A DNA stretch of 64,000 bases from Hyphomicrobiales bacterium (lineage in GTDB: Bacteria > Pseudomonadota > Alphaproteobacteria > Rhizobiales > Rhizobiaceae): positions 1 to 64,000 of the forward strand of contig JAJFHU010000051.1 of assembly GCA_021775455.1 (NCBI GenBank), given 5' to 3'. A program made the position numbers and the translations under genes. Under the pieces are notes generated by a model that searched no databases, was not told where the DNA came from, and was given only the letters and a program-made list of their open reading frames with translations. This document shows positions 2,043 to 58,917 of this stretch, in pieces (positions within the stretch are counted from its first letter, which is position 1; each line of letters begins with the position of its first letter).

Positions 2043-2830
2043 TATATCACTTCAGAGAATTTGATTTCGTTTGCAACCACCAAATCTACTTCTGACTCTT
2101 CACAAATTTTGACAAACGCCCTTTCAGGCTTTTTATCCGTTACAAACATATCCAGATCATCCACGTGACCGATTTCAACTGGTGCGCGTCGTTCGAATTT
2201 GCTGCTGTCAGCAGCCAGAATTGTCTGGTGCGCCTGTTTGATAATCGCCTGTGTGACACGAACCTCGCGGTAATCGAAATCCAGCAAGGAACCGGACTGA
2301 TCAATGGCTGAAGTTCCGATTACGGCGTAATCGACCTTGAATTGTCTAATTAGATCGATTGCAGCGGCACCTACAATTCCACCGTCAGATTTGCGCACCA
2401 TACCGCCAGCGATAAATAGCTCAATATCTGGAGAATCTGAAAGAATATGCGCGACATTTAAATTGTTAGTGATAACCATCAAACCCTTGTGGTTTCGAAG
2501 AGACAGGGCGACCTGTTCTGTAGTCGTTCCAATATTCAGGATGAGTGAAGCATTATCCGGGATAATTGACGCCACAACTTCACCGATACGTTTCTTGCTA
2601 TCGGCGCTGATCTCGCGTCTTGCCTTGTATGCAACATTGACAGTATTGGAAGGAAACACTGCGCCACCGTGGACACGATTCAATTCTCCAAAATTGCAAA
2701 GATCGTTGAGATCCTTTCGGATTGTCTGAGGCGTTACTTCAAAATCCGACGACAACAGATCCACGGTCACATGACCTTTTCTGCGCGCAATCTCGAGTAT
2801 CTCCATTTGCCGGGGCGTCAGTGCAATCAA
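2042..2830 (-). CDS. glpR: DeoR/GlpR-family transcriptional repressor
   Basis: The 262-residue protein has a DeoR-type winged helix at residues 1-57, including TIRKDLNDL at 36-44 and RVHGGA at 52-57, and a DeoR C-terminal sugar-phosphate sensor domain with the IGTTTE loop. Family members of this kind repress glycerol genes and are relieved by glycerol 3-phosphate. It is the first gene of glpR-glpD and diverges from the glycerol transporter operon, which points to control of both. The start is a TTG: a GGAG lies seven bases upstream, whereas the nearby ATG at the CATG of 2833-2836 is out of frame and closes at once. Confidence 0.88.
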   Translation of the reverse strand: MIALTPRQMEILEIARRKGHVTVDLLSSDFEVTPQTIRKDLNDLCNFGELNRVHGGAVFPSNTVNVAYKARREISADSKKRIGEVVASIIPDNASLILNIGTTTEQVALSLRNHKGLMVITNNLNVAHILSDSPDIELFIAGGMVRKSDGGIVGAAAIDLIRQFKVDYAVIGTSAIDQSGSLLDFDYREVRVTQAIIKQAHQTILAADSSKFERRAPVEIGHVDDLDMFVTDKKPERAFVKICEESEVDLVVANEIKFSEVI

Positions 2831-2987
2831 ATCATGTCTCCAAGTTTATTTTCGCATATTTGCGTTTTTTTTCGGTTTTATCAATATACTTTCTATTGAC
2901 TTTCGTTTCTTTTCGTAATTTTGTTAACCAAGAACCGGCTTTGGAATAGATTTCCGATAACAGTTTAATTTTGGGAGGAGAAAAAGC
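2831..2987. promoter_or_regulatory. Divergent glpR-glpD / glpVSTPQU control region with CGAAA repeats
   Basis: The region separates the divergent glycerol operons. On the plus strand a TTGACT (2896-2901) can serve as a -35 box with a weak AT-rich -10 near 2919. The stretch 2901-2916 reads as repeated TTTCG units (ACGAAA direct repeats on the minus strand), lying in the promoter spacer. On the minus strand TTGATA (2884-2879) and AAATAT (2861-2856), spaced 17 bases, form a candidate glpR promoter, and further CGAAAA units fall inside its spacer. CGAAA-type repeats are common in operators of DeoR-family repressors, so GlpR binding here is inferred. The glpV Shine-Dalgarno GGGAGGAG precedes the ATG. 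Confidence 0.55.
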
Positions 2988-4721
2988 ATGAAAAAATTGC
3001 TCATGACAACCGTTGCAGTTGTTGCGTTGCAATTCGGCGCGGCTTCGGCATTTGCTGGAATGGATGAGGCAAAAAAGTGGATTGCAGATGAGTTTCAACC
3101 ATCAGCATTGTCTCAAGACGAACAGATGAAAGAAATGGAATGGTTCGTTAATGCTGCCAAGCCATTTGCCGGAATGGAAATTAACGTTCTTTCAGAAACA
3201 ATTCCAACGCATACCTATGAAAGCCAGACTCTGACAAAGGCGTTTGAAGAAATCACAGGTATCAAGGTAAATCACCAGCTGCTTGGTGAAGGTGAAGTGG
3301 TTCAGGCAGTTCAAACACAGATGCAAACTGGCCGTAACCTGTATGATGCCTATATTAACGATTCAGACCTGATCGGCACCCATTCACGACTGCAACTGGC
3401 CGTGAACCTTTCAGATTTTATGGCAGGTGATGGCAAGGATGTTACCAATCCAGGTCTTGATGTAGATGATTTCATAGGTAAATCATTTACCACCGGTCCT
3501 GACGGCAAACTCTATCAGCTACCTGACCAGCAATTTGCCAATCTTTACTGGTTTCGAAAAGACTGGTTTGACCGGCCAGATTTGAAGGAAAAATTCAAAG
3601 CAAAGTACGGCTATGACCTTGGTGTTCCTGTTAACTGGTCAGCTTATGAAGACATTGCCGAGTTCTTCTCAAAGGACGTAAAGGAAATTGACGGAGTCAC
3701 CGTTTATGGTCACATGGACTACGGCAAACGCGCACCTGACCTTGGCTGGCGCATGACTGATGCCTGGCTTTCAATGGCAGGTGCAGGTTCCAAGGGTAAA
3801 CCAAATGGTCGTCCAATTGATGAATGGGGCATTCGTATGGAAGAGGGTTCCTGTAATCCGGCGGGTGCTTCTGTCAGCCGCGGGGGAGGAACAAATGGCC
3901 CGGCTGCTGTTTATGCAATTCGCAAGTGGGATGAATGGCTGCGCCAATATGCACCTCCAGGAGCTGCGGACTACGATTTTTATCAGTCACTGCCGGCACT
4001 TTCACAAGGTAATGTTGCTCAGCAAATCTTTTGGTACACGGCGTTTACAGCTTCCATGGTTGCCCCGAAATCTGACGGTAATAATACCGTTGATGATGCG
4101 GGCGATCCGCTTTGGAGAATGGCACCGTCACCCCATGGTCCATACTGGGTGGAAGGTCAAAAACTCGGTTATCAGGATGCAGGTTCGTGGACCATATTAA
4201 AATCAACACCGGCGGATCGCGCCAAGGCTGCTTGGCTTTATGCTCAGTTTGTTGTTTCAAAAACAGTTGATGTGAAGAAAAGCCATACCGGGTTGACCTT
4301 TATTCGTGACTCCACAGTGAACCATGAAAGCTTTACTGAACGTGCACCGAAGCTCGGCGGGCTGATCGAGTTTTATCGCTCTCCCGACCGCGTGAACTGG
4401 TCGCCAACCGGCGTTAATGTACCGGACTATCCAAAACTTGCACAATTGTGGTGGCAGCAGATTGGTGATGTCAACTCTGGCGCCTTTACACCACAGGAAG
4501 CGATGGATCGCCTGGCCGGTGAAATGGACACTATCATGGGCCGCATGCAGCGAGCCGATGAGGCTAACGGCACGTATGGTGGTTGTGGCCCGCGCCTCAA
4601 CGACGAAAAGGATCCTTCCGAATGGCTTGGCAAGGGTGGCGCGAAGGCAAAACTTGATAATGAAAAGCCTCAAGGTGAAACTGTGAACTATGATGAGTTG
4701 GTGGCTCGCTGGTCACAGTAG
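2988..4721 (+). CDS. glpV: Glycerol ABC transporter, periplasmic substrate-binding protein GlpV
   Basis: This 577-residue extracytoplasmic solute-binding protein begins with a signal peptide (MKKLL, hydrophobic core, cleavage after AFA at about residue 23). Its large size and sequence style match the glycerol-binding GlpV component of the rhizobial transporter (glpSTPQUV genes, as named in Rhizobium leguminosarum). It is the first gene of a plus-strand operon followed by two ATPases, two permeases and GlpU, so substrate delivery to GlpP/GlpQ is the inferred role. A GGGAGGAG Shine-Dalgarno precedes the ATG. In R. leguminosarum, as I recall, glpV is placed last rather than first. Confidence 0.88.
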   Translation: MKKLLMTTVAVVALQFGAASAFAGMDEAKKWIADEFQPSALSQDEQMKEMEWFVNAAKPFAGMEINVLSETIPTHTYESQTLTKAFEEITGIKVNHQLLGEGEVVQAVQTQMQTGRNLYDAYINDSDLIGTHSRLQLAVNLSDFMAGDGKDVTNPGLDVDDFIGKSFTTGPDGKLYQLPDQQFANLYWFRKDWFDRPDLKEKFKAKYGYDLGVPVNWSAYEDIAEFFSKDVKEIDGVTVYGHMDYGKRAPDLGWRMTDAWLSMAGAGSKGKPNGRPIDEWGIRMEEGSCNPAGASVSRGGGTNGPAAVYAIRKWDEWLRQYAPPGAADYDFYQSLPALSQGNVAQQIFWYTAFTASMVAPKSDGNNTVDDAGDPLWRMAPSPHGPYWVEGQKLGYQDAGSWTILKSTPADRAKAAWLYAQFVVSKTVDVKKSHTGLTFIRDSTVNHESFTERAPKLGGLIEFYRSPDRVNWSPTGVNVPDYPKLAQLWWQQIGDVNSGAFTPQEAMDRLAGEMDTIMGRMQRADEANGTYGGCGPRLNDEKDPSEWLGKGGAKAKLDNEKPQGETVNYDELVARWSQ

Positions 4722-54900: not shown

Positions 54901-56805
54901 TTAAACCATGCCCCGACTTTTCATGGCTTCAGTTATTTCGTCCAGGATCGCAGGATCATCGATGGTCGCGGGCATTTTCCATTCCATCCCGTCTGCGATC
55001 TTCTGCATGGTGGCACGCAAGATCTTGCCGGACCGGGTTTTTGGCAGGCGGGGAACCTGTATGGCAGTCTTGAAGGCTGCAACCGGTCCGATTTTTTCTC
55101 GAACAAGTGCTACCACTTCTTTCTCAATTTCTGATTCATCTTTCGACACACCGGAATTGATAATCATAAAGCCGACAGGCTTTTGTCCCTTCAGTTTGTC
55201 GGCTACACCAATAACAGCGCATTCGGCAACATCGGGGTGAGAAGCGATTACTTCCTCCATTCCGCCGGTGGAAAGTCGGTGACCTGCAACATTGATGATG
55301 TCATCGGTACGAGCCATGATGAACAGATAACCATCTTCATCTATAATGCCGGCATCTGACGTCTTGTAATATCCCGGGAACTCTTCGAGATATGCTTCAT
55401 GGAACCTCTTTTCAGCATTCCAAAGTGTTGGGAGGCAGGAAGGTGGCAGAGGCAGTTTGACAACCACATTGCCGAGTGTTCCAGCTTGAACCTGATGGCC
55501 TTCATCATCGACGACCTGAATATCATATCCTGGCATTGCAACAGTAGGGGAGCCGTACTTTACCGGTAGTGCACCGAGGCCAACGGGGTTGCCAGCGATG
55601 GTCCATCCGGTTTCGGTTTGCCACCAATGGTCATAAACCGGTACGCCCAGTTTTTCTTCTGCCCAGTGAATGGTGTCAGGATCTGCTCGTTCGCCCGCGA
55701 GGAAGAGTGTTCGGAATTTCGACAAGTCGTACTTTTTGATGAACTCGCCATTCGGGTCTTCCTTCTTGATCGCCCGAAATGCAGTTGGTGCTGTGAACAG
55801 GCTAACCACATTATGTTCTGAAATTACCCGCCAAAATGTGCCTGCGTCCGGCGTTCCGATTGGTTTTCCTTCGAACAGGATGGTGGTGGAGCCGTGCAGG
55901 AGCGGGGCATAGACAATGTATGAGTGACCAACAACCCAACCTACATCAGATGCAGCCCAATACACTTCACCGGGGTCAATGTCATAAATGGCCTTCATCG
56001 ACCATTTTAATGCCACCATGTGGCCGCCGTTGTCCCGAACCACTCCCTTCGGCTGGCCGGTCGTGCCTGAAGTATAAAGAATATATAGTGGATCAGTGGA
56101 AGCTACTTCTACGCATTCAATTTTTGTACCGGACTTGCGGTGTGGATCGACAACCGCCTCATAATCGAAATCTCGTCCATCAATCAGGTCACAGGTGTTT
56201 TGTTCCCGCTGGAGAATGATAGTTGCGTTTGGTTTGCTGCTTGCCAGTTCAATCGCTTCGTCCAGCAAGGGTTTGTAGGCAATTACGCGGCCCGGCTCGA
56301 TACCGCAGGAAGCGGAAATGACTAGTTTGGGCTGGCAGTCGTCTATTCGGGTTGCCAATTCCCGCGCAGCGAAACCGCCAAAAACAACTGAGTGTATTGC
56401 CCCAAGCCGTGCGCAGGCCAACATTGCAATCGCTGCCTCAGGGATCATTGGCATGTAGATGATTACGCGGTCACCCTTGTTTACACCGCGCTCGCGCATT
56501 GCCGCTGCAAGGGCCTGCACTTCTGTTTTCAGCTGCGAATATGTAATCGTGCGTTGGTTTCCGGTAATCGGACTATCGTAAATGATCGCTGGCTGGTCAG
56601 TGCGACCACCGTCTGCGTGGCGATCCACGCAATTGTAACAGGTGTTGCAGGTGGCACCGGAAAACCAGCGTCCATAAACATCAAGGTTTGGATCAAACAC
56701 GCTTTCCCATCTGGAAAACCAATCGATCCCAGCGGCTGCCTCTTCCCAGAATTTTTCTGGTTCTGATTTCCAGGACTTATATATTTCAGCGTATGTTGAC
56801 GACAT
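54901..56805 (-). CDS. prpE: Propionyl-CoA synthetase
   Basis: The 634-residue AMP-forming enzyme has the YTSGTTGQPKGVVR ATP motif, a GWVVGHSY stretch typical of PrpE/Acs and the C-terminal Lys in RLPKTRSGKIL. PrpE-specific features include SGATCNTCYNCVDRH. It activates propionate or related short acids. The ATG has a GGAGACGGG Shine-Dalgarno. The following YeeE genes may be co-transcribed. Confidence 0.93.
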   Translation of the reverse strand: MSSTYAEIYKSWKSEPEKFWEEAAAGIDWFSRWESVFDPNLDVYGRWFSGATCNTCYNCVDRHADGGRTDQPAIIYDSPITGNQRTITYSQLKTEVQALAAAMRERGVNKGDRVIIYMPMIPEAAIAMLACARLGAIHSVVFGGFAARELATRIDDCQPKLVISASCGIEPGRVIAYKPLLDEAIELASSKPNATIILQREQNTCDLIDGRDFDYEAVVDPHRKSGTKIECVEVASTDPLYILYTSGTTGQPKGVVRDNGGHMVALKWSMKAIYDIDPGEVYWAASDVGWVVGHSYIVYAPLLHGSTTILFEGKPIGTPDAGTFWRVISEHNVVSLFTAPTAFRAIKKEDPNGEFIKKYDLSKFRTLFLAGERADPDTIHWAEEKLGVPVYDHWWQTETGWTIAGNPVGLGALPVKYGSPTVAMPGYDIQVVDDEGHQVQAGTLGNVVVKLPLPPSCLPTLWNAEKRFHEAYLEEFPGYYKTSDAGIIDEDGYLFIMARTDDIINVAGHRLSTGGMEEVIASHPDVAECAVIGVADKLKGQKPVGFMIINSGVSKDESEIEKEVVALVREKIGPVAAFKTAIQVPRLPKTRSGKILRATMQKIADGMEWKMPATIDDPAILDEITEAMKSRGMV

Positions 56806-56900: not shown

Positions 56901-57647
56901 CTATTGTTTGACACGCATCAAAGTGCCTATGAATTCCGCCAGTGCTTCTGCCCATTCACGATAGCCCTGCGATGACGCGTGGAATCCGTCTTCTGCAAAA
57001 TTTTCCCTGACTGTGCGCTAGGTGGATTTTGGAGCAAGGACACCTCGTTCTGCGCATAGTATCCGGCCGTTTCGATTGATAATTCGCGAACGAATGCCAA
57101 GGACTTTGTTCAGAGGGGCTGGCAAGGCAGGCACCCTCTCAAGGTCAATCACACCTGCCCATATGATTGTAGCCTTTGGAAACCTCGCTTTCAGCGCATA
57201 TAACAGCGTGCCGAAATCGCGGCAGAAACGGTTTCCGGTATGAAAGTTCTTGGAGTCATTGGTGCCGATATTGAGGGCAATGAAATCGAATGCATTTGGT
57301 TCAATGTGTGGTGTCACATGGTCGCGTATTTCGCTTGCCGTCGCAGAGTTCATTCCGGCAACGCGTATTGATACAGGTTGATGAACTTCCTGTGCCAGGA
57401 GGGGTGCGAGATGTCCGGCCAGGCTTTCATGGATATCTTTCACACCTACACCTGCGGCAGAAGAATCTCCGATCACCAGGACGCGTAGCGGCTCTTTGTT
57501 AGATGTTTCCCCTTTTGGTTTCCCTTCGATACAGCCAGTGTGGCGCGGTGGCATCATCCGCACGATGCCGTTGCGGATCTTCAAGCCCTGCCACGCATAA
57601 ACGGGAAAGCCTAACCAGGAGCAGAGAATTTCAAACCGGGTAACCAT
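56901..57647 (-). pseudogene. SGNH/GDSL hydrolase interrupted by an in-frame amber codon
   Basis: Reading from the ATG at 57647, block I (IGDSSAAG) and block III (IGTNDS) are intact. The frame stops at a TAG (57018-57020) after LAPKST, but continues in the same frame for 38 sense codons to a second TAG (56901-56903), and those codons hold the catalytic DGFHASS block V and a family-like end (YREWAEALAEFI). One base change explains it. Without the Asp-His block the short form should be inactive. An alternative longer start at 57740 overlaps the flavoprotein gene. Confidence 0.85.
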
Positions 57648-57711: not shown

Positions 57712-58917
57712 TCACAGTGCCTGCCCAGCTGCCCATCCACTGGACCAGGCCCATTGAAAGTTGTAACCGCCCAACCAACCAGTGACGTCGACCGCTTCCC
57801 CGATTATGTAAAGTCCGGATATATTTTTGCTTTCCATGGTCTTTGATGAAAGTTCAGTCGTGCTTATGCCGCCCTTTGTTACTTCCGCCTTGGCAAACCC
57901 TTCCGTTCCATTTGGCATGAAGACCCAATTGGCCAGTTTATGTTCAATTGTTTGTAGGGTTTGATCTTTCAAGTTTGCCAGTTCACATTCGGCAACTTCA
58001 GCCTGAACCAGCTTGTCAGCCAATGTCTCAGCAAGGCGGGTTGGCAATATCTTGGACATGGCGGATTTCAATCCAGCGCGTGGTTGGTTTTCCTTCATTT
58101 TCAAAAACCAACCGGGAGAAAAATTTGGAAGAAAATTTATCGAGACTGCTTCCCCAGGATCCCAATAGGAGGATATTTGCAGAATAGATGGCCCGGACAA
58201 ACCCTTGTGAGTAAAGAGTGCAGCCTCGCGAAACTCCGCATTGCTGCACCTGGCAATAATTTCAGTTGATACTCCACTAAGCGAACGAAAAAGCGCTTCA
58301 TCCTGACCAAGCGTAAGTGGAACCAGTGCTGGACGCGGTTCCACGACTTTCAGGTGGAATTTCCGCGCGAGATTGTAGGCAAAACTTGATGCACCCATTT
58401 TCGGAATTGAAGGCCCGCCTGTGGCGATTACCAATGCGTGGGTGGTCGCGGTACGGTTTCCGAACTTTACCTGAAATGTATTTTCGGCATGGGTTACATC
58501 CGATATGCTTTCTCCGAGGGATAGCTCAAAATCTCCCCGGTTACACTCATTCAACAGCATCTCGACAATCTGCTTCGCTGGACCATCACAAAACAATTGG
58601 CCGAGCGTTTTTTCATGCCAGGCAATCCTGTGTTGATCGACCAGTGCAATGAAATCTTGCGGCGTGTACCGCTGCAATGCAGATTTGGCAAAGTGTGGAT
58701 TTTTCGAGATGTAGCATTCAGCCGGGGTGGAAAGGTTGGTAAAGTTGCAGCGGCCTCCGCCGGAAATCAGGATTTTCTTGCCCGGCTCATTGGCGTGCTC
58801 GATCAACAGAATTTTCTTGCCACGTACCCCTGCAATCGCTGCACACATAAGGCCTGCTGCACCGGCGCCAAGGATTATCGCATCAAACTTCAATCTGTCT
58901 TTCTCCAATGCGATCAT
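57712..58917 (-). CDS. HI0933-family FAD-dependent oxidoreductase
   Basis: The 401-residue flavoprotein has the LGAGAAGLMCA FAD motif, the family-specific GKKILISGGGRCNFTN, and ends with the YIIGEAVDVTGWLGGYNFQWAWSSG region, typical of HI0933/YhiN proteins. The substrate is unknown. It lies downstream of the aldolase terminator, so it has its own promoter. Confidence 0.92.
   Translation of the reverse strand: MIALEKDRLKFDAIILGAGAAGLMCAAIAGVRGKKILLIEHANEPGKKILISGGGRCNFTNLSTPAECYISKNPHFAKSALQRYTPQDFIALVDQHRIAWHEKTLGQLFCDGPAKQIVEMLLNECNRGDFELSLGESISDVTHAENTFQVKFGNRTATTHALVIATGGPSIPKMGASSFAYNLARKFHLKVVEPRPALVPLTLGQDEALFRSLSGVSTEIIARCSNAEFREAALFTHKGLSGPSILQISSYWDPGEAVSINFLPNFSPGWFLKMKENQPRAGLKSAMSKILPTRLAETLADKLVQAEVAECELANLKDQTLQTIEHKLANWVFMPNGTEGFAKAEVTKGGISTTELSSKTMESKNISGLYIIGEAVDVTGWLGGYNFQWAWSSGWAAGQAL

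Follow-up and report, generated by a model that had tools for sequence, protein, structure and literature searches.

The hydrolase locus

The 64,000-nucleotide stretch analysed here, hereafter the window, is part of contig JAJFHU010000051.1 of a Hyphomicrobiales bacterium (assembly GCA_021775455.1). On its minus strand, at 57647-56901, lies the reading frame of an SGNH/GDSL hydrolase, which runs from an ATG through 209 residues to an amber codon, TAG, at 57018-57020, carries on in the same frame for a further 38 residues and meets a second TAG at 56901-56903, the point at which orthologues end. Profile match and alignment place block I (GDSS), the Gly of block II and block III (GTND) in the 209 codons ahead of the amber (57021-57647; block names after PMC9487903), and the 38 codons past it (56904-57017) hold block V as DGFHASS, with the catalytic Asp and His, and a family-like end. 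This tail reads RTVRENFAEDGFHASSQGYREWAEALAEFIGTLMRVKQ, and the readthrough sequence behind the amber includes the stretch VRENFAEDGFHASSQGYR. The initial annotation had described a frame halted by the first TAG with DGFHASS and a family-like end in the next 38 codons before a second TAG, and the sequence reads exactly so.

The gene is flanked on the same strand by two intact genes, identified by reading frame, profiles and relatives: upstream that of an HI0933-like FAD-binding enzyme (57712-58917) and downstream an acetate/propionate--CoA ligase-like gene (54901-56805), with 95 bases between the second TAG and the ligase ATG. A ligase homologue is found downstream on the same strand in all 21 of the nearest relatives described below, not always adjacent, and in two of them (L076 and L079) the hydrolase and ligase genes abut or overlap. 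As to the class of the ligase, the propionate--CoA ligase models give the higher scores, 757 and 709 bits, without reaching their cut-offs, and the acetate--CoA ligase subfamily gives 657.9 bits against a cut-off of 657, which it just passes.

Membership of the hydrolase family is clear from Pfam PF13472 (Lipase_GDSL_2), which gives 46.2 bits without the tail and 52.9 bits with the tail when the amber is written as X, exceeding the curated cut-off of 32.9 both ways, and with the tail the match extends to profile position 177 of 178. The Lipase_GDSL profile likewise rises from 25 to 36.3 bits once the amber is written as X and the tail is included. Matches to PDB profiles are distant (the best being 4k3u, 6.3e-06), NCBIfam has no name for the gene, and a Pfam search with the 38-residue tail by itself found no family at E 0.001. 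An open run of 38 codons has a chance of about 0.14 given the base composition and is unremarkable by itself, so the significance of the tail comes from homology beyond chance and not from its openness.

In SGNH hydrolases, as described in PMC9487903, block V contributes an Asp and a His that stand three residues apart. The block I Ser, block II Gly and block III Asn, assigned following the same source, are S62, G98 and N130 in the window gene, which retains them at columns that are invariant in the alignment of relatives (A1, below). With blocks I, II and III before the stop and block V past it, the gene resembles other SGNH/GDSL hydrolases of PF13472, and it differs from them in that the product translated to the first stop falls short of block V and would lack the catalytic Asp and His. 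These are D220 and H223, which occur only in the readthrough frame, and the amber thus separates them from the rest of the protein as had been proposed.

The amber position in relatives

The gene is matched in 22 of 61 whole genomes near the window, and setting aside the window itself, a weak match in G055 (E 5.7e-5, covering residues 47-137 only) and a frame-broken copy in G010 leaves 19 genomes with a match that contains no internal stop. The sequences from these 19 genomes together with the window make up alignment A1, from which the G055 match was kept out. A scan of the contigs of named genomes with the truncated protein as query yielded no relatives; with A1 it yielded 262, the best 80 of which were used. 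Nine of the loci (L075, L079 and L084-L090) are on contigs that are also in the 61-genome set, and the named and 61-genome sets are therefore not independent.

The best 80 of the 262 relatives are Hyphomicrobiales, and the nearest are for the most part metagenome bins, marine or environmental, that carry the labels Rhizobiaceae, Nitratireductor or Salaquimonas. At the amber column these 80 have Pro in 57, Trp in 21, Asp in one and Gln in one, or Pro in 56 and one gap if a relative with a stop of its own (L133) is taken to end there, and none of the 80 has a stop. The 21 nearest (L072-L092), which are only about 50-62% identical to the window protein, are all uninterrupted and all have Trp at this column.

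A broader sample of the family comprised 297 genomes searched at a threshold of E 1e-20, at which 133 have the gene and 164 have no match. These gave 138 match rows, some of them pieces at contig ends, and an internal stop is present in the window row only (0 of the 137 others). As far as these collections show, the stop is thus private to this genome, and since the near relatives have Trp in 21 of 21 cases and no other row carries an internal stop, the site of the amber is not conserved. A stop inside the gene at a codon that is sense in its orthologues is what marks a nonsense pseudogene, and that is the situation here.

Two of the best 80 of the 262 relatives were flagged as ending early. 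One of these, L102, was rejected as an interrupted copy, its stop being at the natural end of the gene. The other is L133, from Mesorhizobium sp. B2-3-4 (about 2501-3187), which has an internal TGA of its own at a column where 56 of the 80 other aligned sequences have Trp, as does the copy in Mesorhizobium sp. B2-3-12 (L123). Judged from the alignment, this TGA is a second, independent internal stop in an orthologue. In G010, a genome of the same genus, the gene (L070, in G010:C18:50500-57500) is split over three frames with a TAA. The ligase gene of that genome is frame-broken too, so the G010 copy was not counted as a natural pseudogene, and its breaks are probably assembly noise in the form of indels.

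State of the gene and age of the stop

To describe the state of the gene a column was called conserved where one residue is shared by 20 or all 21 of the near relatives. The window gene retains 57 of 59 such columns in the part up to the amber and all 12 in the tail, among them those of the catalytic Asp and His, which is within the range of the intact relatives, as these depart at 0 to 5 conserved columns in the first part and at 0 to 1 in the second. Identity to the 21 near relatives is similarly 0.50-0.63 before the amber and 0.43-0.61 after it. The gene has one stop and no frame break, and the claim made for it at the outset, that no other decay is visible, stands.

The undecayed tail places the event within about 0.086 neutral substitutions per site, a rough 95% bound that assumes equal rates and is not a date. 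It rests on the 29.0 nonsynonymous sites in conserved codons of the tail and its 5.67 nonsense sites, and on a 95% chance of their being hit if unselected. Recency is bounded only loosely by this value because the nearest relatives are no more than about 50-62% identical. The 12 retained tail columns and the bound fit youth and continued selection alike.

Decoding machinery and the rest of the window

The genome, which is in 62 contigs and is estimated by a completeness tool to be 99.99% complete, encodes release factor 1 (prfA; 490 bits, above the family cut-off), and a search of it for PylS gave no match. A tRNA search in which 150 of 177 candidates were scored gave 42 places, and none of the 38 tRNAs that ARAGORN read among them has a CUA anticodon, a result that is not airtight as the tRNA set is incomplete (the isoleucine tRNA with GAT was not seen). 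Four of the 42 tRNA-like places (L066, L067, L068 and L069) received no ARAGORN reading; L066 and L067 were rejected as suppressor tRNAs, being partial copies of tRNA-Arg(CCG), and L068 and L069 are below Rfam's gathering score. Of 18 further window genes that were read in phase, three end with TAG.

Interrupted genes were also sought across the window by comparing it with the proteins encoded on four 20-kb stretches from relatives, two from G008 and one each from G004 and G012. This gave 63 rows of which 26 contain stops, and two of the 26 are the hydrolase gene itself. Four others were rejected on inspection, three as 5' over-extensions and one as an antisense shadow, and the remaining 20 lie over genes that also have an uninterrupted match. 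Window positions 1-36796 gave no rows. Of twenty intervals then read through, that of the hydrolase is interrupted, 18 are clean and one is open over its gene. Apart from the hydrolase, the 19 window genes set beside relatives in this way, all of them beyond 36.8 kb, show no interruption. A mobile or viral origin of the locus was considered and rejected, as a search of viral contigs gave no relative and a distant blastn search matched no plasmid.

Interpretation

It is highly probable, in our judgement, that a nonsense mutation has recently struck what is otherwise a well-preserved orthologue of an SGNH/GDSL hydrolase, one that is widespread but dispensable in the Rhizobiaceae in the broad sense. 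The most likely outcome is a shortened and inactive protein, brought about by ordinary gene decay and not by a recoding system. Trp codons are one substitution away from TAG. Ribosomes would terminate at 57018-57020 by means of RF1 and release a protein of 209 residues without block V, which should be dead as an esterase because D220 and H223 of the triad lie past the stop. The tail would be undecayed for the reason that too little time has elapsed. The data show directly the stop, its confinement to this genome, the sense codon in relatives, the retained tail and RF1, and we infer the truncation in the cell, the loss of activity and the recency of the event. That the gene can be lost follows from the 164 genomes without a match among the 297 sampled from the family and from the Mesorhizobium orthologue with its own stop, which makes a nonsense mutation of recent date the plainest reading. 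The retention of conserved columns, 57 of 59 ahead of the amber and all 12 past it, is a counterpoint to decay, as a functional readthrough gene would also show it.

The initial annotation had left the choice between a very recent nonsense mutation, an assembly error and programmed readthrough or recoding. The uninterrupted Trp-bearing copies in all 21 near relatives and the absence of a stop from the 137 other rows best support the mutation, and the last option is unsupported. A dedicated recoding of UAG, be it by pyrrolysine, a suppressor tRNA or a change of code, has the open frame past the TAG in its favour and nothing beyond; set against RF1 being present, PylS absent, the 38 tRNAs read without a CUA anticodon, TAG ending other genes of the window and a site that is unconserved, it can be given hardly any credence. 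An error of the consensus, or a population assembly that has caught a minority allele while most cells of the species have the gene intact, is rather unlikely, although it would account for a hydrolase with no second lesion among compared window genes that are otherwise all intact, as a single wrong or polymorphic base predicts. Metagenome bins are numerous among the near named relatives, and this genome may be one too. Nothing positive points towards an error, however, and a lone substitution that yields exactly a stop is unlike the indel-type noise of long reads, of the kind that is seen in G010.

It would also seem very unlikely that the amber is tolerated through leaky termination, in which a small share of full-length protein suffices for selection on the tail and the stop perhaps acts as a short-lived lowering of expression. 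The intact tail would agree with this, as would the report by Belinky et al. 2021 (PMC7918605) that in-frame stops are widespread in bacterial genes, are mostly short-lived and have dN/dS under 1. The same authors, however, assume that the vast majority of these are without functional recoding; moreover the stop is shared by no relative, no suppressor tRNA is among those read, and youth alone predicts an intact tail equally well. The specific proposal that the amber is a young, tolerated expression throttle, with leaky termination giving a little full-length esterase and keeping the catalytic tail under selection, would accordingly be a long shot. If it were true that leaky termination keeps the tail selected, the gene would illustrate on a small scale how stop codons can tune expression in bacteria.

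The case in the window fits the picture that Belinky et al. 2021 (PMC7918605) give of nonsense-interrupted bacterial genes. Like the nonsense-interrupted orthologues treated there, which are young pseudogenes or in-frame stop polymorphisms, the window gene has one in-frame stop, no other decay and is confined to one lineage. No general difference from them is evident, but it is unlike their Paenibacillus example in that the TAG of the latter is common to several species and that of the window is found in none of the relatives seen. As it stands the case matters little, being that of one lineage which has lost or is losing a gene that over half of the family genomes sampled lack. It is a clean one, in which the intact tail past the stop can mimic recoding yet probably means only youth. 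Early termination in the hydrolase might also lower expression of the ligase by polarity.

Finally, the two partial copies of tRNA-Arg(CCG) lie outside the window, near contig ends or on short contigs. One (L066:120-169, plus strand, on contig C25) matches 50 bases of the 3' part of the tRNA with an alignment score of 100, that is with no mismatch, and the other (L067, minus strand, on contig C3) matches 49 bases of the 3' part with a lower score. Both look like the attachment-site duplicates of integrative elements.
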